Shown here piece by piece: positions 3,766 through 24,476 of a DNA stretch of 43,388 bases. The stretch covers positions 1-43,388 of the forward strand of contig JACRFA010000108.1 in the NCBI GenBank assembly GCA_016218065.1, in the 5' to 3' direction. This DNA is from Ignavibacteriota bacterium (lineage in GTDB: Bacteria > Bacteroidota > Ignavibacteria > UBA10030 > UBA6906). The translations under genes and the position numbers were made by a program. Every line of letters begins with the position of its first letter. Position 1 is the stretch's first letter. The notes under the pieces are model-generated. The model was given only the letters and a program-made list of their open reading frames with translations. It was not told the origin of the DNA and did not search any database.

Positions 3766-3767
3766 TC
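3702..3767. repeat. Palindromic repeat pair at the 3' end of the octaheme cytochrome gene
   Basis: ACGGCGCT (3702-3709) pairs with AGCGCCGT (3731-3738) around an inner CCGC-ATT-GCGG hairpin. A second hairpin, GAGGACA-AA-TGTCCTC (3752-3767), follows, and its outer bases overlap the TGA stop codon (3766-3768) of the cytochrome gene. It could help terminate or stabilise that transcript. No clear T-run follows on the minus strand, so a repeat origin is more likely than a classic terminator. Confidence 0.6.
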
Positions 3768-5667
3768 ACTTAATCATCAACATCTTTCGCGTTGCTGAAA
3801 ATGTTCCCACCTCAAGTCGATAAAAATACAAGCCCGAAGCAACCATCTGGCCAAAGTAATCTTTGCCATTCCAAGTCGCTTCGTATGTTCCGGCGTTGTA
3901 GTCTCCGTCCATCAGTCGAACGATCTCTTGTCCGATCACATTATAGACAATCAATTGAACCTGCCCGCGCTCAGCAACCGTAACGCTGATTTTCGTCGAC
4001 GGGTTGAATGGATTCGGATAGTTCTGTGACAACGAGTGCTTCAACGGTACGTTCCCTGCGACCGGTTTCACGCTCGTGAAGCCCCATTGACGCCAGAAGT
4101 ACCACAATGTATCGGCGAGCGCGAGATCGGTTGCTTCGCGCCAATCTGCAAGGTTCGCATCGGAACCAACGCCAAAGGACGGAACGGATGCAGTCACGCC
4201 CGACGGATTACGATGGCAACTTGCAGCGCATGTGTTGATCATGCCAAGCGAGGGCGATCCCACTGTAGAATAGCGACGCGTAGCGTTTGGCGCAATTACT
4301 CCCCACGTGTGCGTAGCAATGTCAAAAGAATTCGCGGTGACCGCTGTGAGCGTCATGTGGCACTTCGAGCATCGCCCGCCGCCGCCAGTGTTTGCAGCGT
4401 TGGTCGGATCGTACACGTTGTGTTTCGTGTGCGCATTCACGTATCTGCCGATTGAGTCTTTGAATGCAATCGGGCTGCGTACCCATGCCTTCTGCACCGA
4501 CGCGAACGGTCCGTGCGTCGCGTGACACGCAAGACAAAGCGTGTTGTCTTTGTCGCTCACCTTGAAGCGATCCGCACCAACTGTCAGTGAATCGACAATG
4601 TCCTTCTCGTTTGATGTTGGTTTGTGCGATGAATGGCAAGTGAAGCAGCTCATCTCAACAAATGAGTTCGTGTAGTGCGCAGATCCCATCATGTCGTGAT
4701 ACTGCTGATGATGCTGACGAGGAACGTTGGTATCAACCCACGTGCCGCGCCCGCCGCCTGCATTTGGCGCGAGGCCGAAGTTCATAAACTGGTCGAGTCG
4801 CTTCGTTGTGTCGGCCGGATTGAAGTACGTGTCGTTCGATTCGTTGCGGTTGAATTCGTGCGTGCCGACCAATCCTGCGCCTCGCCACGATGACGCTCTG
4901 TTGTGGCATTGTCCGCACACTTCCATCTTTGATCGCTTGCTGAGCAACTTCGACGGGTTCATCTGGTGGTTCGGTCCGGCGCCGCCTGTTGAAGGACCGT
5001 GGCATGCTTCGCAACCAACCGTGAGATTGATCTCCGAGTTGTTGCCGGCCCATCGCGCCACCCACTGTGTATCGGCCCCTGCCACGACGGTCGAAACTCT
5101 TCCGCCTGTGAGATGGCAGCCCATGCAGTTCTTGTCCCACGACTTCTTTCGGAAGTAGATCGAGTCCGTTCGAATCGCTGCGCCACTGCTCTTGAACCAC
5201 GTGTTCGGATTGTATGTCACCCACGAGCCGGTGCTGTTGTCGAGGTACTTCTTAAGATTCCATTGAATCGGAAGAATGTAGTAGCTCGTATCAATCTTCA
5301 CGAGATAGCGTTGCTTGTAGCCCCAACCGTACGTGTAGGCAACCTTGTAGTTCGGTCCGCCGGCGCCGACGCGAGCATAGTAGTCGCTGCCGACTTTGCT
5401 CAAATAGACTTTTGCATTGCCGTAGCTCGCGCCCATCGACACGCTGTCGCCGTTTTGAAATTTCTGCCACGTGCGCATGGAGACCGTGTCGGGCTTCAGG
5501 TGGATCTTGGCATGAAGACTATTCTGCCAATGACTATACTGGTTGCCAAACACACCTGAGTGACAGGTCTGGCAGTACTGCGAACCCTGATATGTTTGTG
5601 CATCGACACTCGCTTGCACGAACACTATCAGGAACGCAAGCGTCAGAAAAAGTACAACTGCTTTCAT
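3766..5667 (-). CDS. T9SS-sorted multiheme (8-heme) cytochrome c
   Basis: This 633-residue protein starts at the ATG at 5667, chosen because it is preceded by AAAGGAAC and opens a signal peptide (MKAVVLFLTLAFLIVFVQAS). The frame is open further upstream, but without a signal sequence. Seven CxxCH heme motifs lie at residues 32, 181, 219, 251, 341, 378 and 433. A CX3CH motif (CAASCH, 480-485) makes eight. Extra histidines that could serve as distal ligands are frequent. The last 90 residues are a T9SS sorting domain (QNYPNPFNPSTKI) ending RKMLMIK. The product should therefore be a periplasmically matured, T9SS-exported electron-transfer protein on the cell surface. The N-terminal YQGSQYCQTCHSG with a later W..S.H resembles cytochrome c554-type multihemes. 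Substrate or partner is unknown; an extracellular electron-transfer role is inferred from the MtrA/MtrB-like genes nearby. Confidence 0.9.
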   Translation of the reverse strand: MKAVVLFLTLAFLIVFVQASVDAQTYQGSQYCQTCHSGVFGNQYSHWQNSLHAKIHLKPDTVSMRTWQKFQNGDSVSMGASYGNAKVYLSKVGSDYYARVGAGGPNYKVAYTYGWGYKQRYLVKIDTSYYILPIQWNLKKYLDNSTGSWVTYNPNTWFKSSGAAIRTDSIYFRKKSWDKNCMGCHLTGGRVSTVVAGADTQWVARWAGNNSEINLTVGCEACHGPSTGGAGPNHQMNPSKLLSKRSKMEVCGQCHNRASSWRGAGLVGTHEFNRNESNDTYFNPADTTKRLDQFMNFGLAPNAGGGRGTWVDTNVPRQHHQQYHDMMGSAHYTNSFVEMSCFTCHSSHKPTSNEKDIVDSLTVGADRFKVSDKDNTLCLACHATHGPFASVQKAWVRSPIAFKDSIGRYVNAHTKHNVYDPTNAANTGGGGRCSKCHMTLTAVTANSFDIATHTWGVIAPNATRRYSTVGSPSLGMINTCAASCHRNPSGVTASVPSFGVGSDANLADWREATDLALADTLWYFWRQWGFTSVKPVAGNVPLKHSLSQNYPNPFNPSTKISVTVAERGQVQLIVYNVIGQEIVRLMDGDYNAGTYEATWNGKDYFGQMVASGLYFYRLEVGTFSATRKMLMIK

Positions 5668-5811
5668 GTTGTTCCTTTCGTTTTGAATGTTGGATTGTGA
5701 GTGGTAAGCCCCATGAATACACGCCCGCATACATTCGGCGTGTCTTGTCTTCGGCACGGGGAAGTTCTTGCTTATGATTGTTCTTGGCGACATCTCTTCG
5801 CATCAAAATTA

Positions 5812-6498
5812 TTATGGAACCGATCGCTCTCCCAACGTGACGCTCTTCCCATCCGGCAGTACAACAGTCCCAACTCCGGTCAGGTAGGCCAAACCTTTTC
5901 CCTTGATCACGCCGAAGTAGATCGGCTCATCGCTTGCGCTCTCGACGAGCAAGTCAGATCTCGTGAAGGGAAACGTCAATCCGTTTGTCTGAATGGCGAT
6001 GATAGATCCATCTCCGGTTGGGCAAGCAAGCAGACCCATTTCATCCGGGGGAAAGTCTTTGAGTCCGCGGGTCTGACCTCCGGAGAGAGGTTCGGGTGAG
6101 AAGCAACCGTATTCGCTATCTTGCCGCACATTGTCATCGATCACGACAGAAACCGATTTGGCAAAATATCCGATTGCGCCTTTCTGTGGATTGACCGACC
6201 GCCACAGATTCCATTTCTCTCCGAGAATGTTTAACGGGATGATGAAACCGGATTCACGACGTCCGAGTCGGCTCATCATCTCTTGCAACTTCATCGCAAG
6301 CTTTGCTGATCCGGCGAACTTTCCTGAAGGAAACCTGGCGAGAAAGATTTTGAGTGAGGATCGGTCGAGCGAGTTCACATCAGCCCATGCCCTCTGCTCT
6401 GAATCCGCAGCCATTGTTCTTGCAGGCTCGGTCTGGCCGAACAGTGGGCAGCTAAGCAAGACGGACGCCGCGATCTGAATAAGAATACGCCTCTTCAC
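5812..6498 (-). CDS. Secreted hypothetical protein, GTG start
   Basis: A 228-residue protein of unrecognised family. It begins at GTG (6498), supported by a GAGGAGAG ribosome site about ten bases upstream. The signal peptide is MKRRILIQIAASVLLSCPLFGQ. A short segment, DRSSLKIFLARFPSGKFAGSA, resembles the helical hairpin seen in TPR-type outer-membrane assembly proteins. The rest has beta-rich character with a C-terminal DGKSVTLGE strand. No heme motif and no sorting domain are present, so it probably stays in the periplasm or is lipid-free in the outer envelope. It lies 144 bases upstream of the 8-heme cytochrome on the same strand and may be co-transcribed with it. A triple CTKAAG-type repeat sits 75 bases upstream of its start. 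Confidence 0.72.
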   Translation of the reverse strand: MKRRILIQIAASVLLSCPLFGQTEPARTMAADSEQRAWADVNSLDRSSLKIFLARFPSGKFAGSAKLAMKLQEMMSRLGRRESGFIIPLNILGEKWNLWRSVNPQKGAIGYFAKSVSVVIDDNVRQDSEYGCFSPEPLSGGQTRGLKDFPPDEMGLLACPTGDGSIIAIQTNGLTFPFTRSDLLVESASDEPIYFGVIKGKGLAYLTGVGTVVLPDGKSVTLGERSVP

Positions 6499-6572
6499 GT
6501 TGTTCTCTCCTCGAACAATCCTGATGCAAAATTCAACGTGAGGAATTTGAGAAGAAATGTCGCGGCTTACAA

Positions 6573-6599
6573 CTGAAGTTTGTCTTAAGAGTGATTAAG
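6573..6599. promoter_or_regulatory. Triple direct repeat, likely OmpR-family operator (site B)
   Basis: CTGAAG (6573-6578), CTTAAG (6584-6589) and ATTAAG (6594-6599) are spaced 11 and 10 bases start to start, preceded by CAA. The same order and spacing recurs at 8509-8535 and 21092-21118. Direct repeats one helical turn apart are how PhoB/OmpR-type response regulators bind DNA. This copy is 75-100 bases upstream of the GTG at 6498. Confidence 0.55.
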
Positions 6600-6629
6600 G
6601 ATGCGGGAAAACCCTTCCTTCTCGGAACC

Positions 6630-6672
6630 AAAAAACAAAACCCCGGCTCCACTTGTAGAAAAGGAGCCAGGG
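6630..6672 (-). terminator. Intrinsic terminator of the decaheme T9SS cytochrome gene
   Basis: On the minus strand, CCCTGGCTCC pairs with GGAGCCGGGG around a 12-base loop (one bulge). It is followed at once by TTTTGTTTTTTGG, a good T-run. It lies about 45 bases beyond the stop codon at 6716. Confidence 0.8.
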
Positions 6673-6715
6673 TCTTTCGATTGAATGGGCGTTCAGCTCA
6701 ATTCAAAGCAATGGA

Positions 6716-8266
6716 TCACTTCACGAACAACATTTTTTTCGAGGCGATGTAGGAACCCGCCTCTATTCTATAGAGGTACACACCGCTTGCGACAGCTGAG
6801 CCGGCGTGATCAATACCATCCCAGTAAACCTTGTACGTTCCAGGCTCAGTGAGTTCGTTGGCAAGAGACGTCACATACTTCCCGAGCATGTCATACACCG
6901 CGATCTTGACATGAGCTTTTGCAGGAACCGCAAAGCGAATTGTGGTTGATGGATTGAAGGGATTGGGGAAGTTCTGCTCGAGCGCAAACTCCCGCGGCGC
7001 AACCCTCGACACCGGAACGCTGTTGATGATCGACGCGCCGATCAGATTTCCCTGATAGTGACACTTGCTCGCACACACCGAATGCGTGTCGGGCTTTACA
7101 ATCTGATGCGGATACCAGTTGATCGCCTCATTGTACTTCATAATCAATGGTCGCACGCGGTTATTCTGAAGCGGCCATCGCCACGTATCATGCGCGATCT
7201 GTCCCTTCGATCTTCCGAAGCCGGTGAAGTGACAGGAAATGCAATCAACGGTCGTATGCTGCGGATAGTGATTCGTCATCGTGTGGCATGTCTGGCACTT
7301 CACGTCACCTTCATCCTGCCAGTTGTGGCGTCTGCCGGGATACGCGTGAACGTTCGAATGGCATTGTGCGCATTTCTTTGATGAGTGATTCGCGCTCAGC
7401 GCGTTCTCTTGAATTTGCGGATGGCGACGAATGTTCGTGCCCCATGCCTTGGGGTACGGCGGATCTTCCGAGAGGAAGCCGTTCATCGGCGGCTTGTAGT
7501 AGCCGATGTGGCAAGACTGACAAACAGCGTTCGATGCACGCAAACTATCGCCTGTATCGATCGTATGCGACGCGACATTTACCGTCCAGTCCATTGAGTA
7601 CTCGGTCATCTTCCCGACACGGGCAAGCGAGCCGCCATCGCCAAACTGTTGCAGACTATCCCAGATCGCGAGCACGTTGCCAGTACTCGCCTGAATCTTG
7701 TTGGATTTGAAATGGCACGTCGCGCACGACGTATGACAACGGTTGCAGTCGTTGTTCACGTATGCTTCGCCGACCGACTCGCCGTTCACCGTTCGCACGT
7801 GTGCTTGTCGTTGTCGCCAGGTAACATGATGCGTTGAAGAATCGAAGCCGGCGTGCTGGGCATGACATCCATTTTTATTGCACGACATTGCCGCCGCGGT
7901 ATAGTAGTTTCTTGTGCGCTCGCCGCCCGGCGTGATTGTGTCGTTCTTTGCGGAGAACCGCGCCCATCCGCCGTAATGCTTTACCAAGGAATTGGCGCCA
8001 GTGTGAGTGAACAGATTGCTTTGTGTGATGTCGGTGTGGCATTGCACGCAGAGCAAGTTGCGATGCTTGCTCATGTTGTACTTCAGAGAATCGACGAACA
8101 GCGGAATCGTCTCCGTCGTGCCGTTCGAAAGCGTGATCGTCTTGCTCAGTGATGCATTCGAATGGCAGAGGTAACATTGCTGTCGCGTAATCTGCGCATG
8201 AAGCGAGAGCGTGACAAGCAATGTTGCTGATACTGCAAGTATGGAAAGCCGTAAACGTTTGAACAT
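6716..8266 (-). CDS. T9SS-sorted multiheme (10-heme) cytochrome c
   Basis: A 516-residue secreted cytochrome. A strong AAGGAGAT site precedes the ATG at 8266, and the signal peptide is MFKRLRLSILAVSATLLVTL, cut near LHAQ. Eight CxxCH motifs occur at residues 31, 73, 174, 181, 249, 299, 324 and 342. There is one CX4CH (CNKNGCH, 129-135) and one CX3CH (CASKCH, 398-403), for ten possible hemes. The pair CNRCHTSCATCH (174-185) puts two hemes almost in contact. Residues about 425-516 form a T9SS sorting domain (QNFPNPFNPSTTI, ending KKMLFVK). The protein is thus expected on or outside the outer membrane. It is divergent from the PadR/MtrAB-like operon, sharing a 450-base regulatory region, which supports joint control. 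Its direct electron partner is unproven. Confidence 0.9.
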   Translation of the reverse strand: MFKRLRLSILAVSATLLVTLSLHAQITRQQCYLCHSNASLSKTITLSNGTTETIPLFVDSLKYNMSKHRNLLCVQCHTDITQSNLFTHTGANSLVKHYGGWARFSAKNDTITPGGERTRNYYTAAAMSCNKNGCHAQHAGFDSSTHHVTWRQRQAHVRTVNGESVGEAYVNNDCNRCHTSCATCHFKSNKIQASTGNVLAIWDSLQQFGDGGSLARVGKMTEYSMDWTVNVASHTIDTGDSLRASNAVCQSCHIGYYKPPMNGFLSEDPPYPKAWGTNIRRHPQIQENALSANHSSKKCAQCHSNVHAYPGRRHNWQDEGDVKCQTCHTMTNHYPQHTTVDCISCHFTGFGRSKGQIAHDTWRWPLQNNRVRPLIMKYNEAINWYPHQIVKPDTHSVCASKCHYQGNLIGASIINSVPVSRVAPREFALEQNFPNPFNPSTTIRFAVPAKAHVKIAVYDMLGKYVTSLANELTEPGTYKVYWDGIDHAGSAVASGVYLYRIEAGSYIASKKMLFVK

Positions 8267-8414
8267 AGTGACTATCTCCTTTTTGTCGCGTTAGAGCAAC
8301 GCAGCAATGTGATTGAATGGAAAGAACAACGGCAGGTGTGTTTTGGGGTGAAGTGTGTACAGCCGATGAACCTATCGTCACCTTCTGTAAGCACAGAACA
8401 CGCGGCCAGCCAAC

Positions 8415-8473
8415 GCAATCAGTGCAACTCTCATTCGCTTCAAAGACTCGCACGAAAGTGAGCGACTGATTGC
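8415..8473 (-). other. Inverted repeat, possible structured leader RNA
   Basis: GCAATCAGT (8415-8423) and ACTGATTGC (8465-8473) are exact 9-base inverted repeats, 41 bases apart, with further short complementary words between them. If transcription of the decaheme T9SS cytochrome starts upstream of 8473 on the minus strand, this could fold as a branched leader. I do not recognise it as a known riboswitch. Confidence 0.25.
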
Positions 8474-8508
8474 ACATGCAAATTGGTGGGAATTGTTCAG
8501 GAGTTCAA

Positions 8509-8535
8509 CTTAAGAGTTCCTTAAGATCGCTTAAG
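8509..8535. promoter_or_regulatory. Triple CTTAAG direct repeat, likely OmpR-family operator (site C)
   Basis: Three perfect CTTAAG words at 8509, 8520 and 8530 (11 and 10 bases apart), preceded by CAA. This is the cleanest of the three full copies in the window. It lies between divergent genes, 243 bases from the cytochrome start at 8266 and about 180 bases from the PadR start, so it could serve either promoter. Confidence 0.6.
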
Positions 8536-8627
8536 TGGAAGAATGCAACACTCAGATTAAGACGATTGCTCTTCCAACAGCCGCGGCGTACGTGAGGTAA
8601 TTCCTGATTTTCGGTTTTGGAATGACC

Positions 8628-8643
8628 CTGAAGAGTGCTTCAG
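8628..8643 (+). promoter_or_regulatory. Partial CTKAAG repeat upstream of the PadR promoter (site D)
   Basis: CTGAAG (8628-8633) and CTTCAG (8638-8643) keep the 10-base spacing and share CTGAAGAGTGCTT with site A at 21103-21115. A degenerate TTGGAA sits where the third half-site would be (8617). The site ends 15 bases before the -35 box, a suitable place for an activator. Confidence 0.45.
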
Positions 8644-8658
8644 GAAAGCATTGTGTTA

Positions 8659-8687
8659 TTGACAAACCCTCGCCCCGCGATTATATT
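8659..8687 (+). promoter_or_regulatory. Near-consensus sigma70-type promoter of the PadR operon
   Basis: TTGACA (8659-8664), a 17-base spacer and TATATT (8682-8687). The start of transcription would fall near 8694, leaving a leader of about 23 bases before the ATG at 8717, which has no clear Shine-Dalgarno sequence. Confidence 0.65.
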
Positions 8688-8692
8688 GGAAC

Positions 8693-8713
8693 CCGATAAC
8701 GAAATCCGATAAC
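8693..8713 (+). promoter_or_regulatory. Direct repeat CCGATAAC at the transcription start
   Basis: CCGATAAC occurs at 8693-8700 and again at 8706-8713, 13 bases apart, between the -10 box and the ATG of the PadR gene. A repressor bound here would block the promoter, so self-control by PadR is one option. Known PadR sites are usually inverted rather than direct repeats. Confidence 0.4.
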
Positions 8714-8716
8714 ATT

Positions 8717-9010
8717 ATGGTTCGAGACTTTTTTCTTGGCTTCATCAAGGTGCACATCCTTCATCACGCCGCGCAAGTACCAATCTATGGCTTGTGGATC
8801 AAGGATGAGCTTGCCCATCACGGTTATAACCTGAGCCCGGGAACGTTGTATCCGATTCTTCATTCGCTGGAGGAACAAGGTCTTCTCAAGTCGTACTCAG
8901 AGACGGTGGATGGAAAGGTTCGGAAGTACTATGAAACGACCCCGAAAGGAACGAACGTGCTCACCGGGGCAAAGGGGAAGATCAAAGAACTCTTGGATGA
9001 AGTAATGTGA
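8717..9010 (+). CDS. PadR family transcriptional regulator
   Basis: A 97-residue winged-helix DNA-binding protein. The sequence FIKVHILHHAAQ..IYGLWIKDEL followed by SPGTLYPILHSLEEQGLL is the core PadR signature; the wing is KVRKYYETTPKG. The length matches the short PadR subfamily that lacks the large C-terminal dimerisation domain. It is the first gene of a plus-strand unit and ends 19 bases before the membrane iron-sulfur protein gene. It is probably a local regulator of this operon and perhaps of the divergent cytochrome gene. The effector is unknown; PadR members sense phenolics, drugs or other stresses, and none of that can be read from this sequence. Confidence 0.9.
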   Translation: MVRDFFLGFIKVHILHHAAQVPIYGLWIKDELAHHGYNLSPGTLYPILHSLEEQGLLKSYSETVDGKVRKYYETTPKGTNVLTGAKGKIKELLDEVM

Positions 9011-9029
9011 AGAAGGCGAAGGCAAGGTT

Positions 9030-10421
9030 ATGAGGGAGGTCGAATTCGATTTGCTGAGCGTGAGGCCGCTGAAGACTCTGATTCTATGGCGGGGATTCCC
9101 GTACGTATTTCAGGCGTTGACGCTGATAGCATTCCTCCTGCTTGCCTACATTGGATTTGGCGTGTTCCCGACAGAAGGTATCAACGCCAAGCTCTTTGCC
9201 AAATCAAATCTCGTCACGCTCGTGATTTGGGGATTGTGGTGGCCCGCGATGATTTGGACTGCGGTGTTGGCCGGCCGTGCATGGTGCATGATATGTCCAC
9301 TTGAGTTTGTCTCGAATCTCTCAGAACGGCTTGCGCGCCGGCTTGGAATCGAGCAACGCTCGCTCGGTCAATGGCTCCGCTCCGGCGCGCTGATGGTTCT
9401 GCTCTACTTCGCCATTCAAATGCTCGTGTCAGGTGTTGGTCTCCATCGTGTTCCTGCGTACACATCATTCTTCCTCATCGGATTGCTTGCCTCGGCAATC
9501 GTTGTTGGGTTCGTGTTTAAGGATCGAGCGTTCTGTCGCGCGTTTTGTCCCGTGGGATTGCTCCTCAATGCCTACGGAAGAGGCGGGATGCTTGCCGTAC
9601 GTCCCGGATCAAGTGCTGCGTGTTCCAGCTGTGCTGATAAGGGTTGTCTGATCGCGAGCAATCGGAATAAGGTTGATGGTCGAAGCTGCCCGAGTCTTCT
9701 CAACCCTTCGCGGTTGAACAGCAACAAAGATTGTCTCGTCTGCGGACAGTGCATCAAGTCGTGCGCGCCGGACAATATGCAACTGGTGTTGCGGCAGCCA
9801 TTTCCCGAAAAGGACGCGCGCGAGCCGCTTGCATCATGGCCGCTCACATTGTTCATCATGCTTGCGTCCGGCTTCGTCACTTCCGAGCTGACGGCAGAGT
9901 CGAGCATTGCGCAAGCTGCGTTCGTCTGGATTCCAGAACACATTGCAGACATCTTGCGGCTCTCCCACTATCTCGGATGGCTTGAGGGAATCTGGGCCCT
10001 TGTATTATTCCCGGCTGTGCTGTGGCTGCTGCTGGGAGGAATGATTGCTCTGTTTAGACGCACGAGCATTGGCGATGCGTGGAGGAGACTGGCGCTACCG
10101 ATCGCAGTTATTGTTTCCGCCGCACACATGAGCAAAGCGCTTGCGAAGTTCACGTCGTGGGCTGGATTTTTTCCGCACGCGCTCACTGATCCCTTGGGGA
10201 CGAAGACTGCCATGGACATTGCATCGCACGCCGTTCCTTCACCCGAACCGTTGGTGAATATTCACGTTGCATCAGGAATTGCATTCGGTCTTCTCCTCGT
10301 CGGAACGCTGCTAGCATTGCGAGAAGTGCGCCTCGCAAATCCGACGTATCTCCGCGTGCATGCGGCGCCGAAGTTTGCATTGGCGGGATTGTTTGTCATT
10401 ATCATAATGGCGTGGGGTTGA
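9030..10421 (+). CDS. NapH/NosR-like membrane 4Fe-4S protein (putative quinol-oxidising electron carrier)
   Basis: A 463-residue inner-membrane protein with several hydrophobic helices at both ends. Between them lie the marks of the NapH/NosR/CcoG family: C86MIC89P and C169RAFC173P after membrane segments, then two ferredoxin-like cluster sites, C198xxC201xxxxC206 with C220P, and C235LVCGQCIKSC245. Family members pass electrons from the quinol pool, or between membrane and periplasm, through these clusters. In this operon, with a small periplasmic cytochrome and, after a gap, a decaheme/MtrB-like pair, it is a good candidate for the entry point of electrons, doing the job CymA does in Shewanella. 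That role is inferred. An AAGG-rich stretch precedes the ATG. It is not a textbook NapH: the C-terminal membrane half is longer. Confidence 0.82.
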   Translation: MREVEFDLLSVRPLKTLILWRGFPYVFQALTLIAFLLLAYIGFGVFPTEGINAKLFAKSNLVTLVIWGLWWPAMIWTAVLAGRAWCMICPLEFVSNLSERLARRLGIEQRSLGQWLRSGALMVLLYFAIQMLVSGVGLHRVPAYTSFFLIGLLASAIVVGFVFKDRAFCRAFCPVGLLLNAYGRGGMLAVRPGSSAACSSCADKGCLIASNRNKVDGRSCPSLLNPSRLNSNKDCLVCGQCIKSCAPDNMQLVLRQPFPEKDAREPLASWPLTLFIMLASGFVTSELTAESSIAQAAFVWIPEHIADILRLSHYLGWLEGIWALVLFPAVLWLLLGGMIALFRRTSIGDAWRRLALPIAVIVSAAHMSKALAKFTSWAGFFPHALTDPLGTKTAMDIASHAVPSPEPLVNIHVASGIAFGLLLVGTLLALREVRLANPTYLRVHAAPKFALAGLFVIIIMAWG

Positions 10422-10549
10422 TTTCGTTCTGAACGAAGCGAAGCCCTGGTGGGTGAGCGTAGTGAAGGGTTAGTTTGGGATTCTTCTCCAAAGGGGTCCT
10501 TCGGACAGTTCGTCACGTTGTTCTTTCAAATCACTACTGGAGATGTCTC
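10422..10549. other. Intergenic gap with degraded repeat-like sequence
   Basis: This 128-base spacer between the iron-sulfur protein and small cytochrome genes contains words such as TCTGAACGAAGCGAAG and GGGATTCTTC, like the repeats in this type of genome. No terminator with a T-run is obvious, so read-through to the cytochrome gene is possible. Confidence 0.4.
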
Positions 10550-11074
10550 ATGCAACCACACCATTTCTCATTGCGTCATCCTCTCATTCGCATCTCCACT
10601 ACTCTTCTTCTCTGCTTTTTCTGTCCCACATGTGCGGAACCTGCGAAGGACTCCGCTTCTCCTGATTCTGTTTGGCTGAAGGGAACCTCCGACGAGAAAT
10701 TTCATACCGTCGCCCGCCAACTTCGCGGCTTCGACATGGCGATGATGGAAACCGCTCATCGCTATACGGAGTTATACTGGGCAGGGCGCGACGGGAACTG
10801 GCAGTACGCGAAGTATCAGGCCGAGAAAATTCGCACTGCGATTGAAAACGGCTTGCAGCGACGGCCGAAGCGTGCTGCCTCTGCACAGACGTTTCTGACA
10901 TTTGTGCTGCCGGAAATGCTCACGGCGATAGAGAAGCAGGATTCGTCACTGTTTTGGAATCGCTTCGGAGCGTTAACTTCCACCTGCAACGCGTGTCACG
11001 AAGCAGAGAAGGTTGCATTCATCAACGTGGCGCCGCCTGAAACGCGGCTGTCGCCTGCGCATCTCTTCAAATAG
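10550..11074 (+). CDS. Small secreted monoheme cytochrome c
   Basis: A 174-residue protein starting at ATG 10550, which follows a GGAG. The same frame is open upstream, but that part has no ribosome site and would hide the signal peptide (RISTTLLLCFFCPTC). The mature part is mostly helical (HTVARQLRGFDMAMMETAHRY.., KYQAEKIRTAIENG..). It ends with one heme-binding motif, TC146NACH150, near the C-terminus, as in cytochrome c'-like four-helix proteins. It should act in the periplasm as a one-electron carrier. Position between the membrane iron-sulfur protein and DoxX genes, upstream of the decaheme pair, suggests it shuttles electrons within this pathway. The exact family is not certain. Confidence 0.8.
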   Translation: MQPHHFSLRHPLIRISTTLLLCFFCPTCAEPAKDSASPDSVWLKGTSDEKFHTVARQLRGFDMAMMETAHRYTELYWAGRDGNWQYAKYQAEKIRTAIENGLQRRPKRAASAQTFLTFVLPEMLTAIEKQDSSLFWNRFGALTSTCNACHEAEKVAFINVAPPETRLSPAHLFK

Positions 11075-11088
11075 AAATAGGAATACCC

Positions 11089-11547
11089 ATGCACCAATCC
11101 GTGCTCTTCAAGCTCACGAGCAAGGAATCCTACGACACGGTTGTTCCTCTCATTCGATTGATGGTCGGCGCAGTCTTTCTCTCAGAAGGAATCCAGAAGT
11201 TTCTCTTCTCCGAATCGCTCGGCGTCGGTCGGTTCATCAAGATTGGAATTCCCGCCCCGGAAATCCTGGCGCCGTTCGTCGGGGTTGCCGAGATTGTGTG
11301 CGGCGCGTTGTTGCTGCTCGGTCTCTTCACGCGGCTCGCTGCCATTCCGCTCATCATCAACATGCTCGTCGCAATCTCAACTACAAAGATCCCAATTCTC
11401 GTTGAAAAAGGATTCTGGGCGATGGCACACGATGCGCGCACGGACTGGTGTATGCTTCTCGGCTCGATTGTTCTTTTGATTATTGGCGGCGGTCGTTGGT
11501 CAGCGGATTCGTTGTTAGTGCGTCGGGGAAAAAGGCGGACAGACTAA
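11089..11547 (+). CDS. DoxX family membrane protein
   Basis: A 152-residue protein with four hydrophobic helices. LIRLMVGAVFLSEGIQKFLF, the glycine-rich GRFIKIGIPAPEILAPFVGV and EIVCGALLLLGLFTRLAAIPL are typical of DoxX/DoxD-like proteins. An AGGAA site precedes the ATG, and only 14 bases separate it from the cytochrome gene, so the two are surely co-transcribed. DoxX proteins accompany thiosulfate:quinone oxidoreductase and various redox or stress-response complexes. Here it could be a membrane partner of the electron-transfer chain, but its function in this setting is unknown. Confidence 0.88.
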   Translation: MHQSVLFKLTSKESYDTVVPLIRLMVGAVFLSEGIQKFLFSESLGVGRFIKIGIPAPEILAPFVGVAEIVCGALLLLGLFTRLAAIPLIINMLVAISTTKIPILVEKGFWAMAHDARTDWCMLLGSIVLLIIGGGRWSADSLLVRRGKRRTD

Positions 11548-11584
11548 ATGCCCGCATCGTTCTAACTCAAGTTACAGGGCATTT
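11546..11584 (+). terminator. Stem-loop at the DoxX stop codon
   Basis: AAATGCCC (11546-11553), overlapping the TAA stop, pairs exactly with GGGCATTT (11577-11584) across a 23-base loop. No long T-run follows, so it is a weak terminator candidate. It may instead attenuate read-through into the decaheme/MtrB genes. Confidence 0.35.
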
Positions 11585-11637
11585 GGTAACCCACAAAATG
11601 ACGCCTGAACGAGCGATCGATTCTTTCTTGAGAGGTT

Positions 11638-11698
11638 GGACACGGCAGAGCCGTGTCCCTACACCCCAAAAAGGTAGGGACACGCCTCCGGCGTGTCC
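11638..11698. repeat. Composite palindromic dispersed repeat
   Basis: Two perfect 9-base-stem, 3-base-loop hairpins sit side by side: GGACACGGC-AGA-GCCGTGTCC (11638-11658) and GGACACGCC-TCC-GGCGTGTCC (11678-11698). The sequence between them can form a third stem, GTCCCTAC with GTAGGGAC. The unit GTAGGGACACGSC is a common intergenic palindrome family in bacteria. A related copy lies inside the gene at 983-3112. Confidence 0.75.
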
Positions 11699-11775
11699 TG
11701 CCCTTGTTTCGAAATCGGATTTTCTGCAAATAGCAACTTTGCTAACATCAGTCAACCAATCGAAGGGAAAGGCAA

Positions 11776-12678
11776 ATGAAAAAACCAGCTATCATTTTGC
11801 TCTCTGCCTGCGTCGTAGGTCTTTCTGTCGCGATTCCTCTGCTGGCGCAACGGGGCACTGACAAAGTGGATTGGGCAAAGCTCAATCCCGCGTTCAAAGG
11901 CGCGACGTTCGTGAAGGATAAAGAAGCGTGCCTCACTTGCCATGAAGAGTCGGGCAAGAAATATCTCACCACAACACATGGACGCCTCTTCGGGAAGAGT
12001 ATGGCAGGCGCCGACTGCGAGACCTGCCACGGTCCGCGTAGCAAGCACGTCGAGGAACCGGACTCCAGCTTGGCGTTGTCCGTCGAGCAGTACTCGGAAG
12101 TCTGCATGCAATGCCATCAGGATGGGAACCGTATGTATTGGCAAACCAGCTTGCACAAGACAACCGGTGTTGGGTGCGTGTCGTGTCATACGGTGATGGA
12201 GAATCGCAGTCACACGGCGTTACTCGCCAAGGCAAATCAATTCGCGGTTTGCTCCAGTTGCCACGAGGATGTCAAGGCGATGTTGAGCCGGACTTCACAT
12301 CACCCGATCCAAGAAGGCAAAGTGGATTGCTCATCCTGCCACAACATGCACGGAGCGCCGGGGCGCGCGATGCTGGCGAAAGGCGAAGTCAACGAGACAT
12401 GCTTCGGTTGTCATCAGGAGAAACGCGGTCCCTTCCTCTGGGAACATCCGCCGGCGCTCGAAGACTGCTTGACCTGTCATCAACCGCACGGTTCAAACAA
12501 CAGAAGTCTCTTGGTCACCCAGAACGCATCGTTGTGCGTAACGTGCCATCAGTACGGCGGGCACGTCAATCAATTTCGCTACAACCGTGTGAGCACACCA
12601 TACGGAAATGGCTGCGTTAACTGCCACATGATGGTACACGGCTCCAACCATCCATCCGGCGCACGATTCACGAGATAG
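11776..12678 (+). CDS. DmsE/MtrA-family decaheme c-type cytochrome
   Basis: A 300-residue periplasmic decaheme cytochrome. AAGGGAAAGG precedes the ATG, and the signal peptide is MKKPAIILLSACVVGLSVAI. Ten CxxCH motifs begin at residues 52, 81, 110, 134, 159, 185, 209, 231, 254 and 280, evenly spread as in MtrA/PioA/MtoA/DmsE. Length and ending (VNCHMMVHGSNHPSG) match the family. These proteins form a heme wire that plugs into an MtrB-type barrel and carries electrons through the outer membrane. The barrel gene follows after 12 bases. Whether the flow is outward (metal or electrode reduction) or inward cannot be decided from sequence. Confidence 0.95.
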   Translation: MKKPAIILLSACVVGLSVAIPLLAQRGTDKVDWAKLNPAFKGATFVKDKEACLTCHEESGKKYLTTTHGRLFGKSMAGADCETCHGPRSKHVEEPDSSLALSVEQYSEVCMQCHQDGNRMYWQTSLHKTTGVGCVSCHTVMENRSHTALLAKANQFAVCSSCHEDVKAMLSRTSHHPIQEGKVDCSSCHNMHGAPGRAMLAKGEVNETCFGCHQEKRGPFLWEHPPALEDCLTCHQPHGSNNRSLLVTQNASLCVTCHQYGGHVNQFRYNRVSTPYGNGCVNCHMMVHGSNHPSGARFTR

Positions 12679-12690
12679 GGAGAATAGAAA

Positions 12691-15225
12691 ATGAAAAAGT
12701 CAATTTATACCACGATAGCGTTTCTGCTCAGTTCGATCATAACTGTCCGAGCATCAGCACAAGATGATCTCCAAGTCTCCGGAGAACAAACGCCGGGCGT
12801 CCGTCAGATCGGACTGAACTCCAATTCGAGCAAGTTCAACGAGTACCGCGATCTGCGCGACGGTTTCTTTATGGAAGGTCTGCGGCTCGACATCTTACAA
12901 CCGGAAAGCGGTTGGTTTCTGGATTTCAAGGGAGAGAGATTGTTGTTGGATGATCAGAATATTTTCGCCCGGTTCGGTAATCTCAACAGCCGTTGGAATA
13001 TCGTGATCAATCACAACGAAACTCCGCATCGCCTCAGCAACAAAGCGATGACGCCGTACATCGATCGGGGCGGCGGGCTGTTCACTGTGCCCGCGCAGGT
13101 CGGCATCATCAAGGACACGAGTGTCGCCAACGGCACGCCCTCGCTCGTGCCGACAGCCGCTCAGATGGCAGTCAATGATGCGCTCATCGCGGCGTATTTG
13201 GCAACGTATCTCCGTCCGCTCAGCCAAAGTACGCAGCGCGAACGCACGAAAGCGACACTGAATGTATCGGATGTCGGCGCATTCAATTTTCATCTCACAT
13301 ATTTGAACGAGCTTCAGAACGGTATGCGAAGAACGTATGGCACCATTGGCGATAGACCGCCGCGGACGCTGAACATTCAACTTCCCGAACCGATTGACTA
13401 CACGACTCGCGAGGTGCAAGCCGGAGCGGAATATTCCGGTAACACGATTCAGGCACAACTCGAGTATCACTTCTCGTCGTTCGAGAACAGAATCGATGTC
13501 TTGCGTTGGGAAAATATTTATTTTGATCCTGATGCGGGACGCGACTACGTCTCCACGCTTGCCGGCACCCCGCGCAATGTTTCAAGCTTCGGGCAGCGCT
13601 CACTCGCTCCGGATAATTTCTCGCACAGTGTTTCGCTTTCTGCCGGTATTGATCTCCCAATGGAAAGCCGACTCACATCCACTGCCGCCTTCACTCTCAT
13701 GCGGCAGAATGAAGTGCTGCTTCCGTACAGCGCCAGCACACTTGGCAGAGACCTATCAGTAGATAGTCTTGCATGGAATAATCCTCGCAAACTTCCGCGT
13801 GAGCGTGCAGATGCAAAAATTCAAACTTTGAGATTCGATCTGGAATATTCTATCAATCCTATCAACCTCCTGAACGTGCGACCCTACGTCAGCTACTTTA
13901 AGTTGGACAACAAAGGCGTGACTGCGCAGTGGCGATATGTCACTCAGGATGTTGCAGGCACCAACGGCAGTGTCGCGATCGTCAGCAAGGTGCGCAATCT
14001 TCCGTACGCGTTTGACAAACTCAAATTCGGACTTGACCTGAGGCACTACGTTCCCTTCTGGCGAACGACGCTCCGGGCAGGATATGCACGAGAGAGCATC
14101 AACCGGGATTTCCGTGAAGCAAAAACCGACGAGAACATCTTCGAGGCTTCTGTGCGAACGCGCCCAATCAACCGGCTGACTTTTTCGGCGGCGTTCCTGT
14201 ACGGCGATCGCAAAAGCGATGGGTACAACTACAAGGTTACCAGCGAAGCTTTCTGGTACACCTTTCAGGAAGGCGCCAATGATGTGGACAATCCACAATT
14301 CCTCTTTGCCAATCATCCCGATCTTCGCCGCTATGATGTTTCTGATCGCAAGAGGAATGAGCTGAAGCTGTCGGCTGCATTCATCGCTCTAGAAGATCTC
14401 GACGTGTCGGCTTCGTATCGCTATCGCAACGATGACTTCGCTTCGGATGTTGTGCCGGTCGCTCCTCTGGCAGGAACAACAGTCCCACTGCCTACTCCGT
14501 CTGATGCGAACGCGCTGACGCCCGGGCAGCAACTCGGGTTGCTGCGCGATAAGCGACAGAATGTTGGTCTCAATATTCAATTCGTACCCGCAGAACATTG
14601 GACGTTCATCGCGTTTTTCGATCGCGAGTGGACTGCTTCCGATCAACGCGGGATGGTGTTCAACGAGGGGTTCAGGAATGAGCCGAGCGAACCCACGATT
14701 CAAGGTCCTACTGCTCTCGGTCCTTGGACTGATCCCGGCGGCATTTACAATTCCAACATCAAAGATGTCACGAACACTGTGGGCGCAGGCATCGGCTACG
14801 AAATCATTCCCGACAAACTCCGGCTTCTTACCGACTTCAGCTTATCTGCCACCACCACAGATCTTTCATACACGGGCTTCGGGTCTGATCCTGCATTGAT
14901 CGGACGTGCGTGGGAGACTTTTGATTTTGGATTCAACAGCCCGCGGACAGTCAAGTTCAATCAGTCTGTCGTAAACGCTTCGCTGGAGTACAATGTGTTA
15001 CAGAATCTGATTCTCGGTCTGCATTATCTCTTCAATCATTACCGTATTGAGGATTGGATGCAGGAACCCGTTGGTCCGTGGGTTGAGCAGGTTGGCAGCG
15101 AGTTTTATTTGCGCGACACATCGCGAGACAATCGCTGGGGCAACCGCTTGGTCGCGTTCGGCAGCTACTTGGCGCCGAGCTTTGACGCGCATGTCGGGTA
15201 CTTGACGATGACGTACAAGTTCTGA
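12691..15225 (+). CDS. MtrB/PioB-family outer-membrane beta-barrel
   Basis: An 844-residue protein with a signal peptide (MKKSIYTTIAFLLSSIITVRASAQ) and a GGGAG ribosome site. The rest is alternating polar/apolar strands separated by long loops. It ends VGYLTMTYKF, the C-terminal aromatic expected of barrels inserted by the BAM complex. The N-terminal region (FARFGNLNSRWNIVINHNETPH) and placement directly after a decaheme cytochrome mark it as MtrB/PioB-like, the sheath around the MtrA-type heme wire. It is somewhat longer than Shewanella MtrB. There is no MtrC/OmcA-like lipoprotein gene next to it. The T9SS-sorted multihemes at 3766-5667 and 6716-8266 are the obvious candidates for an outside partner. 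Confidence 0.9.
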   Translation: MKKSIYTTIAFLLSSIITVRASAQDDLQVSGEQTPGVRQIGLNSNSSKFNEYRDLRDGFFMEGLRLDILQPESGWFLDFKGERLLLDDQNIFARFGNLNSRWNIVINHNETPHRLSNKAMTPYIDRGGGLFTVPAQVGIIKDTSVANGTPSLVPTAAQMAVNDALIAAYLATYLRPLSQSTQRERTKATLNVSDVGAFNFHLTYLNELQNGMRRTYGTIGDRPPRTLNIQLPEPIDYTTREVQAGAEYSGNTIQAQLEYHFSSFENRIDVLRWENIYFDPDAGRDYVSTLAGTPRNVSSFGQRSLAPDNFSHSVSLSAGIDLPMESRLTSTAAFTLMRQNEVLLPYSASTLGRDLSVDSLAWNNPRKLPRERADAKIQTLRFDLEYSINPINLLNVRPYVSYFKLDNKGVTAQWRYVTQDVAGTNGSVAIVSKVRNLPYAFDKLKFGLDLRHYVPFWRTTLRAGYARESINRDFREAKTDENIFEASVRTRPINRLTFSAAFLYGDRKSDGYNYKVTSEAFWYTFQEGANDVDNPQFLFANHPDLRRYDVSDRKRNELKLSAAFIALEDLDVSASYRYRNDDFASDVVPVAPLAGTTVPLPTPSDANALTPGQQLGLLRDKRQNVGLNIQFVPAEHWTFIAFFDREWTASDQRGMVFNEGFRNEPSEPTIQGPTALGPWTDPGGIYNSNIKDVTNTVGAGIGYEIIPDKLRLLTDFSLSATTTDLSYTGFGSDPALIGRAWETFDFGFNSPRTVKFNQSVVNASLEYNVLQNLILGLHYLFNHYRIEDWMQEPVGPWVEQVGSEFYLRDTSRDNRWGNRLVAFGSYLAPSFDAHVGYLTMTYKF

Positions 15226-15227
15226 TT

Positions 15228-15968
15228 ATGCAAGACGGGAAGTCCTTCTTGACGGAACTGCGTTGGTCTTCCTCAAACTCGGCACAATCGGTTTCGGCGG
15301 TCCCGCCGCGCATATTGCTATGATCGAAGAAGAAGTCGTGAAACGAAGGCAGTGGCTCACGCATGAACACTTTCTCGATCTCCTCGGCGCAACGAACCTC
15401 ATTCCGGGACCGAACTGCATCTTCATTGCCGAACGGAGTTGCGACAGATGCCACACTCACGAATCTTGGTCTCTTCTTTCTGAAAATCGGTGCGATACTT
15501 TACGGCAGCGGCTACGTGCTTGTTGCCTTCCTGCAAGGCGGACTGGTAGATGCACGGCATTGGCTCACGCAATCGCAGCTGCTCGATGCTATTGCGGTGG
15601 GACAGTTCACTCCCGGCCCCGTACTTTCAACCGCGACGTTCATTGGCTACGTGATACTCGGTTTCCCCGGCGCCGCGGTTGCGACGACGGGAATCTTTCT
15701 GCCGTCGTTTATCTTCGTCCTCGTCAGTAGTCCGCTTATCCCGAAGCTCCGGAAGTCGCCGCTGGCGAGCGGCTTTCTGAACGGCGTGAACGCTGCGTCG
15801 CTTGGATTGATGCTCGCGGTCAGCATTACACTCGCGATGTCTGCGTTGTCGAGTGTGAGCGCATGGATAATTTTCGCCCTTGCGGCTATAGTCGTTTTGG
15901 TTTGGAACACAAACGCCGCGTGGGTTGTTGTAGGCTCTGCGTTGCTGGGATGGATACTGGCGGGGTGA
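15228..15968 (+). pseudogene. chrA: Chromate transporter (ChrA-like), frameshifted and internally deleted
   Basis: Pieces of a CHR-family transporter appear in different frames. ATG 15228, two bases after the MtrB-like stop, reads MQDGKSFLTEL. A one-base loss near 15261 moves the frame to VFLKLGTIGFGGPAAHIAMIEEE..LIPGPN. There the match stops, and the rest of the first CHR half (about 130 residues in a normal ChrA) is missing. A third frame then gives TLTNLGLFFLKIGAILYGSG and QFTPGPVLSTATFIGY through to the stop at 15968, which is the second half. An intact two-domain ChrA is about 390 residues. The second half alone could in principle be made as a one-domain protein, but it has no good start, so decay is more likely. 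Confidence 0.85.
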
Positions 15969-16118: not shown

Positions 16119-16445
16119 ATGGCAACCAGCAACGAGATATTCGGTCTCCACGCAGAAGTCTGCAAGACACTTTCCCACCCGAAGCGGTTGGAGATACTCA
16201 GCATCTTGCGCGATGATGAAATGGCTGCAGGCGACATCGTCAACAAAATGAAAATCTCGAAGGCGAACGTTTCGCAGCACCTCACACTCATGCGAAACGC
16301 GGGCATTCTCGAAGCCCGTCGTGATGGAGTCAACATCTATTACCGCATCTCCAGTCCGAAGGTGATTCAGGCGTGCGACCTGATGCGCGAGGTGCTAATG
16401 GACAATCACACGAAGAAAGAGAAACTCTTTCGGAAAGCGGGATAA
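16119..16445 (+). CDS. ArsR/SmtB family regulator, possibly sulfide/persulfide-sensing
   Basis: A 108-residue winged-helix repressor. CKTLSHPKRLEILSIL and SKANVSQHLTLMRNAGILEARRDG are the family's DNA-binding core; NIYYRISSPKVIQACDLM is the end. A GTG directly before (16116) is an alternative start. The metal-binding ELCVCDL motif of arsenic sensors is replaced by EMAAGDIV, so it is not an ArsR-type metal sensor. Only two cysteines occur, Cys15 and Cys86. Persulfide sensors of the SqrR/BigR group also use a cysteine pair, though at different positions. It overlaps no gene but ends five bases before an SQR-like flavoprotein gene, which it very likely controls. Confidence 0.88.
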   Translation: MATSNEIFGLHAEVCKTLSHPKRLEILSILRDDEMAAGDIVNKMKISKANVSQHLTLMRNAGILEARRDGVNIYYRISSPKVIQACDLMREVLMDNHTKKEKLFRKAG

Positions 16446-16450
16446 ACGAT

Positions 16451-17692
16451 ATGAACGGAAAGACCATTCTGGTTCTTGGCGGTGGCGTTGGGGGCATTGT
16501 CGTCGCCAACGAACTGCGACGCAAGCTTTCTGCGTCCAACAAAATCATTCTTGTCGAAAAGAATAGAGACCACGCGTTCGCCCCATCCTTCCTCTGGCTC
16601 ATGACCGGAGACCGCCAGCCGCAAAAGATCATAGCTCCGTTGCGTACGCTCGTCCGCAAGGGAGTTGAGATCGTGTACGGCAACGCCATTGCCATTGATG
16701 TGATAAATCGAGAAGTGAGAACGACGGAAGGATCGTTCGGCTACGATTATCTTGTGATCGCGCTCGGCGCCGAGCTTGCGCCGGAAACGATTCCGGGATT
16801 GAAGGAGACCGCGTATTCGTTCTACTCTTTCGATGAAGCGCAAAGGCTGCGAGACGCGCTCAGGCAATTCAAGGGCGGAACAGTCGCCGTGGTTGTGAGC
16901 GCGCTTCCGTACAAATGTCCGGGCGCGCCGCATGAAGCCGCAATGCTTGTCGCCGATTTCTTCCGGAAGGGTGGACTCAAGGAAAAAGTTTCGCTGCACT
17001 TGTACACGCCCGAACCGCAGCCGATGCCTGTGGCAGGACCGCAGCTTGGCGATGCAGTCAAGCAGATGCTTGCGTCGAAAGGAATTTCGTTCCATCCTCT
17101 TCACAAGCTTGCTTCGGTGAAGTCTGAGAACAGCGAGCTTCTGTTTGACGAAAAGGAATCGGTCCGGTTCGATCTGTTGATTGCTGTTCCACCACATCGT
17201 GCGCCGCGGATTGTTCGTGATGCCGGACTGGCAAACGAAGCCGGCTGGGTTCCCGTTGATCGCTTCACGCTGCGAACAAAACACGAACGCGTGTTTGCCG
17301 TCGGCGACATCACTGCGATCAGCATCCCGGGTCGGTGGAAATCGGATGTGCCGATGATGTTGCCGAAAGCCGGCGTGTTCGCGCACACGCAAGCGGAGAT
17401 CGTCGCCGAGCGCATCAGCGACGAGATCGCTGGACGCGTTCCACATGCTCAGTTTTGCGGCGAAGGCTATTGCATGCTCGAAGCAGGAGAGGGACTCGCC
17501 GGCTTTGCGTACGGAGATTTCTTTGGCGACCCGAATCCGCGGCTCGAACTGCGAAACATGGGTCGAGCGTGGCATCTCGGCAAAGTGTTGTTCGAGCAAT
17601 GGTGGCTTGCGCCGTTCGGGATTCGCAAGTCCGTTCTGCACTCCGCGTTATCTCTTGGCGCGAAAACTCTCAAGATTCCTGTGAGCGTATGA
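16451..17692 (+). CDS. SQR/FccB-like FAD-dependent oxidoreductase
   Basis: A 413-residue flavoprotein. ATG 16451 was chosen over the longer open frame because it begins the nucleotide-binding fold directly (KTILVLGGGVGGIVVANELRR). A second family mark is VFAVGDITAI near residue 282. Cys156 lies in PYKCPGAPHEAAML, and Cys336 and Cys341 in QFCGEGYCML. In sulfide:quinone oxidoreductases and flavocytochrome c sulfide dehydrogenase, cysteines at about these places form the redox-active disulfide. The first of the three SQR cysteines (near residue 124) is absent, as in FccB. The likely reaction is oxidation of sulfide or persulfide with electrons passed to quinone or a cytochrome. ArsR and DsrE-like neighbours support a sulfur role. 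Confidence 0.85.
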   Translation: MNGKTILVLGGGVGGIVVANELRRKLSASNKIILVEKNRDHAFAPSFLWLMTGDRQPQKIIAPLRTLVRKGVEIVYGNAIAIDVINREVRTTEGSFGYDYLVIALGAELAPETIPGLKETAYSFYSFDEAQRLRDALRQFKGGTVAVVVSALPYKCPGAPHEAAMLVADFFRKGGLKEKVSLHLYTPEPQPMPVAGPQLGDAVKQMLASKGISFHPLHKLASVKSENSELLFDEKESVRFDLLIAVPPHRAPRIVRDAGLANEAGWVPVDRFTLRTKHERVFAVGDITAISIPGRWKSDVPMMLPKAGVFAHTQAEIVAERISDEIAGRVPHAQFCGEGYCMLEAGEGLAGFAYGDFFGDPNPRLELRNMGRAWHLGKVLFEQWWLAPFGIRKSVLHSALSLGAKTLKIPVSV

Positions 17693-17734
17693 TCGCTCTC
17701 GTTGTCGTTCTATCAAACAATCCAAGGAAACAAA

Positions 17735-18088
17735 ATGAGCATTCTCATTCTTATTAACGATGCACCTTATGGCACTGAAAAAGCATACAATGGACTTCGG
17801 TTGGCGATGACGCTGCAAAAGGAACATCCGACAGTTCAGGTAAATGTGTTTCTCATGGCCGACGCGGTTGGCTGTGCACTTCCCAATCAGAACACGCCGC
17901 AAGGTTACTACAACATCGAACGAATGCTGAAGTCCGTTCTCGCGAAGGGAGGAAAAGTAAAAGCATGCGGCTCGTGCGCCGATGCGCGTGGAATCCGACC
18001 GCTATCCATCATCGAAGGGGTGGAGATGAGCAACATGTCGGAGCTGGCGCAATGGACGGTCGATGCAGAGAAGGTGTTCACGTTCTGA
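17735..18088 (+). CDS. DsrE family protein
   Basis: A 117-residue small alpha/beta protein starting at ATG 17735 behind AAGGAAA; the frame is open a little further upstream without a ribosome site. ILINDAPYGTEKAYNGLRLA and the cysteine-bearing loops GC47ALPNQ and KAC78GSC81ADARGI identify the DsrE/TusD-like group, whose cysteines carry or transfer persulfide sulfur. It lies 42 bases behind the SQR-like gene and is probably in the same transcript. A role as sulfur acceptor or carrier for the flavoprotein is the simplest reading, inferred from neighbours and family. Confidence 0.85.
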   Translation: MSILILINDAPYGTEKAYNGLRLAMTLQKEHPTVQVNVFLMADAVGCALPNQNTPQGYYNIERMLKSVLAKGGKVKACGSCADARGIRPLSIIEGVEMSNMSELAQWTVDAEKVFTF

Positions 18089-21091: not shown

Positions 21092-21118
21092 CTGAAGAAT
21101 TTCTGAAGAGTGCTTAAG
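21092..21118. promoter_or_regulatory. Triple CTKAAG direct repeat, likely OmpR-family operator (site A)
   Basis: CTGAAG (21092-21097), CTGAAG (21103-21108) and CTTAAG (21113-21118), with the 11 + 10 spacing of sites B and C and the same CAA before the first word. The last word overlaps the TAA stop of the histidine kinase gene. Read on the minus strand, the sequence beyond the site (CAGTTG, then AGCCGC and TTTCTT) also matches that beyond site B. Confidence 0.5.
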
Positions 21119-23179: not shown

Positions 23180-23180
23180 G

Positions 23181-23194: not shown

Positions 23195-23241
23195 AAACTC
23201 CTGTATGAACCAAATCGGAGCGATGATCACTGGCTACGATT

Positions 23242-24459: not shown

Positions 24460-24476
24460 AATTCACAATGTGCCAC

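Follow-up and report, generated by a model that had tools for sequence, protein, structure and literature searches.

How do Gram-negative bacteria without MtrC or OmcA carry an electron path through to their surface, above all those of the Bacteroidota-Ignavibacteria group? The question is raised by a locus of an Ignavibacteriota bacterium, found on contig JACRFA010000108.1 of assembly GCA_016218065.1 (5.17 Mb, 319 contigs, 97% complete). The contig, 43,388 nt long, is called the window. Its plus strand carries an operon for an outer-membrane conduit of the MtrA/MtrB (MtrAB) type; divergently, the minus strand encodes two multiheme c-type cytochromes, here termed A and B, each ending in a sorting domain of the type IX secretion system (T9SS). 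From the gene content of the window and its relatives we lean towards a modular locus for extracellular electron transfer, in which surface cytochromes exported by T9SS would work with an exchangeable outer-membrane conduit, MtrAB in the window.

Conduit, cytochromes and sorting tails

The decaheme protein scores 234.5 bits against TIGR03508, the DmsE family of decaheme cytochromes (cut-off 192.2), and its top match in the PDB is 6r2q_A (E 5e-61). The barrel matches PF11854 (MtrB_PioB) with E 1e-97, passes TIGR03509 at 245.5 bits (cut-off 240.05) and has 6r2q_B as its sole PDB match (E 4e-12). The two genes lie 12 bp apart, a decaheme with an adjoining barrel, as the family definition of an MtrAB/PioAB conduit has it. 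MtrA and MtrB together form a heme wire across the outer membrane. The remaining gaps between open reading frames of the operon fall in the range of 12-53 bp, except for 228 bp between DoxX and MtrA (Table 1). The membrane iron-sulfur protein is named NapH-like only, because its score falls under the TIGR02163 cut-off; it has around eight hydrophobic spans and one clear CxxCxxCxxxC site. NapH-type proteins exchange electrons with quinone, and this protein is a candidate for the quinone-side partner.

Cytochrome A has eight heme sites (seven CxxCH and one CxxxCH) and B has ten (eight CxxCH, one CxxxxCH and one CxxxCH), all ten of which are kept in the alignment of B homologs. The CxxCH counts of A, B and MtrA (7, 8 and 10) are far over those expected from composition, with means of 0.02-0.09 in 2000 shuffles. 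The T9SS tail model TIGR04183 gives 34.7 bits in both A and B (cut-off 23); with PF18962 (cut-off 27) B passes at 28.0 bits and A stays below at 22.2 bits. A preliminary description of this DNA had placed an MtrA/DmsE decaheme, an MtrB/PioB barrel, a NapH-like protein, a monoheme cytochrome and DoxX on one strand, with 8-heme and 10-heme cytochromes bearing T9SS sorting domains divergent to them, and all of these parts are confirmed. To these the present analysis adds the PadR regulator at the head of the operon, the sensor kinase with its response regulator and the broken ChrA-like gene, none of which that description names. In an AlphaFold model of B the tail is predicted to adopt an Ig-like fold resembling T9SS C-terminal domains (CTDs). 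Foldseek matches to the modelled tail include PorU, PorZ, the RgpB CTD and T9SS-bound CTDs. Ig-like domains from unrelated proteases rank highest in that list, which also contains FlgD; the tail model thus fits T9SS and is no proof of it. A profile of B gave no useful match when compared with the PDB.

The T9SS machinery, assessed through the sortase PorU alone (NF033707, cut-off 420), is represented in the source genome at 732 bits and is over the cut-off in 17 of 17 genomes, the source included. At least 150 T9SS sorting tails are encoded in the source genome. T9SS exports folded proteins out of the periplasm, which fits heme-loaded cytochromes, and export of A and B to the surface is predicted. 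The OmcA/MtrC family (TIGR03507) is over its cut-off of 209 in none of 12 genomes, the best score in the source genome being 19 bits, in agreement with the earlier statement that the locus has no such surface cytochrome; a search by family leaves room for a surface cytochrome of another kind elsewhere in the source genome. We note that further T9SS-tailed multihemes (5-9 CxxCH) occur near A homologs (L094, L096, L177), so that this class of protein exceeds A and B.

Table 1. Positions and strands of the features discussed, in window coordinates
Feature	Position	Strand	Remarks
PadR-type regulator	8717-9010	+	heads the conduit operon
NapH-like membrane iron-sulfur protein	9030-10421	+	TIGR02163 63 bits (cut-off 213)
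Small monoheme cytochrome	10475-11074	+	one CxxCH, no family; likely start ATG 10550
DoxX-family membrane protein	11089-11547	+	PF07681
MtrA/DmsE-type decaheme cytochrome	11776-12678	+	300 aa, 10 CxxCH
MtrB/PioB-type outer-membrane barrel	12691-15225	+	844 aa
Cytochrome A, octaheme c-type	3766-5793	-	T9SS type A sorting domain at the C-terminus; internal Met43 the likely start
Cytochrome B, decaheme c-type	6716-8266	-	C-terminal T9SS sorting domain; divergent from the conduit operon
Promoter-like boxes TTGACA-17-TATATT	8659-8687	+	ahead of PadR; consensus match alone, host sigma factor may differ
228-aa protein between A and B	5812-6498	-	no family assigned
ChrA-like transporter gene	15263-15968	+	3' of MtrB; two pieces in different frames, middle missing
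Sensor kinase and response regulator	21114-23230	-	

Exchange of the conduit in related genomes

Comparisons were made across 391 genomes of the class, the source included, and in a narrower set of 149 relatives without it. In the class, homologs of A (cut-off E 1e-60) occur in 31 genomes, of B (E 1e-40) in 11 and of MtrB (E below 1e-8) in ten, the source counted each time; all ten MtrB neighbourhoods were inspected. An MtrB search at E 1e-3 gave 11 of 150 genomes, from which G027, G037 and G132 were discarded as weak partial matches and eight taken as real. With contig L142 added, B is represented by 12 distinct loci, all of them T9SS-tailed by motif (the tail of L141/L105 reads SPNPF). PadR and NapH were searched for in 38 genomes, two of them congeners and the others picked for A, B or MtrB; nine genomes with weaker A homologs lie outside that search.

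The window's gene order, PadR-NapH-monoheme-DoxX-MtrA-MtrB, has a counterpart in genome G379. There, contig C51 (L185) carries on one strand PadR-NapH-monoheme-Cyc2-like-DoxX, with NapH 53% and the monoheme cytochrome 52% identical to those of the window. By gene content this is the window's operon with a different conduit, one whose product has two CxxCH and a putative barrel. A second contig of G379 (C194) holds a T9SS-tailed B, a response regulator and sensor kinase pair (RR-HK), PadR, DoxX and ChrA within around 9 kb. A second exchange was found between G087 and G089 (L137 and L024), where a 13-heme and a 19-heme gene common to both (63% and 70% identity) stand behind a Cyc2-like porin in the former and behind MtrB-DoxX-monoheme in the latter. 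In G235 a PadR-NapH pair adjoins a T9SS-tailed A; the arrangement is convergent there and divergent in the window.

At five of the 12 B loci (L138, L140, L141, L142, L143) B lies 0.4-2.5 kb from a Cyc2-like protein, a fused monoheme-porin; at one, that of the window, it lies beside MtrAB. Among the 149 relatives, B is present in six (one copy cut by a contig end) and a strong Cyc2-like protein in six, with both in four and in the same locus each time (hypergeometric P 1.1e-5). Weak Cyc2-like matches (E 4e-14 to 9e-11), the sole kind in 17 of the 23 genomes with matches, were kept out of the strong family, of which the source genome has no member. At the N-terminus these Cyc2-like proteins carry a heme site followed by a PxL motif; they are as long as a barrel protein would be, and a putative barrel is assigned from length and sequence.

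The genes around the conduit recur with either type. Homologs of PadR (E 1e-10) number six copies in the 38 genomes, each less than 3 kb from MtrA (source genome, G083, G089), B (G379:C194) or NapH (G379:C51; G235, also near A), a result that speaks of linkage and not of frequency because the genomes, bar the two congeners, were picked for A, B or MtrB. Relatives of the monoheme cytochrome are found next to MtrB (G089, G240) and next to Cyc2-like porins (G068, G379), and those of DoxX near B (L142, L144), next to MtrB (G089) and next to the Cyc2-like gene of G379. An unbroken relative of the ChrA-like gene lies 3' of MtrAB in G083, and other relatives of it lie near B in L142 and L144. The closest relatives of the window's RR-HK stand beside B and a Cyc2-like porin in G068 and G048 (RR 64-65%, HK 41-46%). 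In a Geobacter metagenome-assembled genome (MAG) a pair with RR 62% and HK 36% identity is near a B homolog, with a 6-heme relative of A (26%) between them. The RR-HK pairs at other A and B loci are less similar (RR around 32-37% identity) and may be unrelated. In G210 A adjoins B, both tailed and accompanied by RR-HK, and in G263 A adjoins a distant NapH relative (28%).

Homologs of B at around 33-35% identity occur in that Geobacter MAG and in two Chloroflexota MAGs. All three have, by eye, a lipobox-like start with its Cys and stop where the T9SS tail begins. Of the further matches to B, L149, which is partial, and L150-L155, with E values of 5e-8 or worse, were set aside in this comparison of anchors. 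Tailed and untailed forms make up separate groups in the B tree (100/100). We are evenly divided on the general proposal that T9SS serves in Ignavibacteria as a route, beside lipoprotein export, for surface multihemes: one cytochrome family would have T9SS-tailed members in this class and lipoprotein-like ones in Geobacter and Chloroflexota. The tailed forms would work with exchangeable conduits, whether Cyc2-like, MtrAB or perhaps of another kind, and would have PadR and a two-component system as common regulators.

Several further neighbours were observed. The 228-aa protein between A and B has no relative at E 1e-8 among the 55 other loci compared. A membrane protein of around 204 aa recurs at both MtrA and B loci (L142 5586-6200, L143 4977-5585, L186 712-1335). 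Near B, both Ignavibacteria and Chloroflexota repeatedly encode a TauE/SafE-like protein, recognised by eye (L160 4067-4840; also L143, L147, L148, L157, L179). In G240 its gene adjoins MtrAB-monoheme, and in L179 it is close to A. In the window, 16373-18088 encodes a sulfide-quinone-reductase-like flavoprotein (NF049943, 239 bits, cut-off 525). The small protein after it resembles DsrE by eye, and the two may point to sulfur chemistry. A polysaccharide cluster (GH5, MFS transporter, GH3, acetylesterase, GH16) occupies 23242-36942 and also includes two large proteins with T9SS tails.

A possible electron path and its competitors

In the modular reading, electrons would be exchanged between the quinone pool and the NapH-like protein, between the latter and the small monoheme cytochrome, and between the monoheme cytochrome and MtrA plugged into the MtrB barrel. 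MtrA/MtrB would in turn exchange electrons with surface cytochromes B and A, and these with a donor or acceptor outside the cell. Heme uptake and folding of A and B would occur in the periplasm; the folded proteins would leave it through T9SS and occupy the position that lipoprotein MtrC/OmcA has in other systems. The conduit would behave as an exchangeable cartridge, its position being taken in relatives by the Cyc2-like fused cytochrome-porin. We infer the surface location of A and B, their contact with MtrAB and the order of transfer. The direction of flow is left open, as the NapH-like protein suggests outward transfer and the likeness to Cyc2 and to Pio/Mto suggests inward transfer.

A number of observations weigh against this reading. 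The preliminary description had proposed linkage of MtrB to T9SS-tailed multihemes across relatives as a check and had named its lack of conservation as a refutation. The linkage is not conserved: a T9SS multiheme stands beside MtrAB in one of the ten MtrB genomes, that of the window alone, a count limited by contigs of just 4.0-6.6 kb in G046, G240 and G067. The G046 contig breaks off within a multiheme gene that lies 2 kb downstream of MtrB, leaving the tail of that protein out of view. A or B is present anywhere in the genome in four of the ten (the source, G048, G067, G096), and in the other six no match to either exceeds the search cut-offs. The association of MtrB with A or B across genomes is weak (three genomes with both when the source is omitted, P 0.04, with the weak A homologs of G118, G127, G109 and G099 included; strong A alone, the variant that omits them, P 0.02). 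In relatives A is often accompanied by a regulator pair only, or by no recognised partner. The B loci of G379 and G210 have long flanks with no MtrAB or Cyc2-like gene alongside, that of G379 holding a 413-aa protein there; in G104, G321 and G355 the contig stops at B or around 0.5 kb upstream, and the other side is without a conduit. The Cyc2-like proteins themselves depart from the published motif, AXPXFAR[Q/K][T/Y] before CXXCH with PXL after it (PMC8406198): Cyc2a reads ATSQWARKT, with S and W replacing P and F, and Cyc2b reads ANPNFSRKY, with S replacing A and two CxxCH. Built from an alignment of 12 rows, the AlphaFold model of B has a mean pLDDT of 42.6; it is poor except in the tail, and its heme part is useless. 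MtrAB and B also differ in their nearest relatives, as set out below.

L107 is a B locus truncated by a contig end; there B adjoins an 11-heme cytochrome and a protein of 441 aa whose barrel match, to PF13505, is weak and falls below the cut-off. In L091 (3727-6152) and L107 (807-3157), genes for a putative barrel protein of 441-463 aa and for an 11/12-heme cytochrome adjoin A or B, and they may represent a further conduit type.

The earlier proposal that the T9SS cytochromes take the place of MtrC stands in part. The sorting tails, the lack of OmcA/MtrC over the cut-off and the repeated presence of B at conduits speak for it; the pairing with MtrAB is not conserved, and B in relatives pairs with a Cyc2-like porin. 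What survives is the broader claim that T9SS-tailed cytochromes associate with exchangeable conduits.

MtrAB might instead act alone in the manner of PioAB/MtoAB, with A and B as independent surface or secreted cytochromes merely sharing regulation and a redox island. The premise that MtrAB needs MtrC was too strong, pio and mto operons having been described without it (PMC10654088). The absence of a T9SS multiheme beside MtrAB in nine of the ten MtrB genomes and the RR-HK neighbours that A and B have of their own in many relatives point the same way. However, B repeatedly adjoins another conduit, and PadR, NapH, the monoheme cytochrome and DoxX are common to operons with either conduit. We regard a solitary MtrAB as possible, though unlikely.

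It is more doubtful still that A and B are enzymes, that is, surface multiheme reductases or oxidases fed via the conduit and acting on a soluble substrate (sulfur, nitrogen or a metal oxyanion). A passes Pfam Cytochrome_C554 at 22.4 bits (cut-off 20.8), a heme domain that occurs in such enzymes, and the spacing of heme sites in B is unlike that of MtrC. DoxX, ChrA-like, sulfide-quinone-reductase-like and TauE/SafE-like proteins recur nearby, yet no neighbour fixes a substrate. The Pfam families passed are general heme domains and sorting tails, and no NCBIfam reductase is over its cut-off.

The history of the locus appears to be composite. The window's MtrB groups with that of G046 (family f6, 100/99), other forks among window-type MtrB rows being unsettled, and its B groups with that of G068 (family f5, 99/97). 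The congeners G001 and G002 have no MtrB and no PadR or NapH match, and their A/B matches are to the tail only. Because the relatives of MtrB and B differ and the congeners are without both, the locus looks as if gained horizontally from two sources, and MtrAB seems to have come from a different lineage within the order. An assembly chimera is thought unlikely, given an even base composition and the recurrence of B with RR-HK and of PadR with NapH or MtrA in other genomes. A two-source origin would fit either chance neighbours or a functional swap of conduits, and the shared set of genes favours the swap. Chance adjacency of two unrelated, horizontally gained redox islands without joint function, which the separate groupings and the congeners would permit, is the least probable reading, as PadR, NapH, the monoheme cytochrome, DoxX, ChrA and RR-HK accompany A/B and conduits in other lineages and base composition stays at 0.53-0.56 across the locus.

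Relation to known systems

If T9SS does carry folded multihemes outward, gene finders that seek lipoprotein cytochromes would overlook the outermost component. Exchange of Cyc2-like proteins and MtrAB in one operon type would suggest that the two kinds of conduit are functionally equivalent. The arrangement of the locus suggests an undescribed means by which the outer end of a respiratory chain is positioned at the surface, and tests may be possible since Stygiobacter electus 09-Me carries a T9SS-tailed B. No paper joining T9SS and multiheme cytochromes was found in the open-licence literature under the spellings multiheme and cytochrome. An MtrB-like porin-cytochrome complex in Ignavibacteria has already been reported, as the first case, in a source that also reports members of the Bacteroidota-Ignavibacteria group in anode biofilms (PMC7399161). 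The MtrB-like conduit is common to that complex and the window; the word "secretion" is absent from the main text of that report, so no T9SS partners appear there under that word.

MtrCAB/DmsEF of Shewanella shares with the window an MtrA/DmsE-type decaheme, an MtrB-type barrel and putative surface multihemes next door. The window differs in having no OmcA/MtrC over the cut-off and in the T9SS tails of its candidate surface cytochromes; where it has a NapH-like protein, Shewanella uses CymA. PioAB/MtoAB resembles the window in pairing an MtrAB-type conduit without MtrC with a small periplasmic carrier, and MtoA interacts with the monoheme cytochrome PmcA (PMC13390432). In the window, T9SS multihemes divergently adjoin the conduit, and no HiPIP or CymA/ImoA-type gene was recognised in the operon; the window's MtrB shares only 24% identity with that of G048, which is classed as PioB-like. 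The conduit of the relatives is like Cyc2 in its N-terminal heme site, following PxL and barrel length, and unlike it in its departures from the motif and its position next to a T9SS decaheme. With type A substrates of T9SS (gingipains, NucA, RemA), A and B share a C-terminal sorting domain of matching motif and, as modelled, fold, in a genome that encodes PorU; the difference lies in the cargo, which in the window is a multiheme cytochrome.

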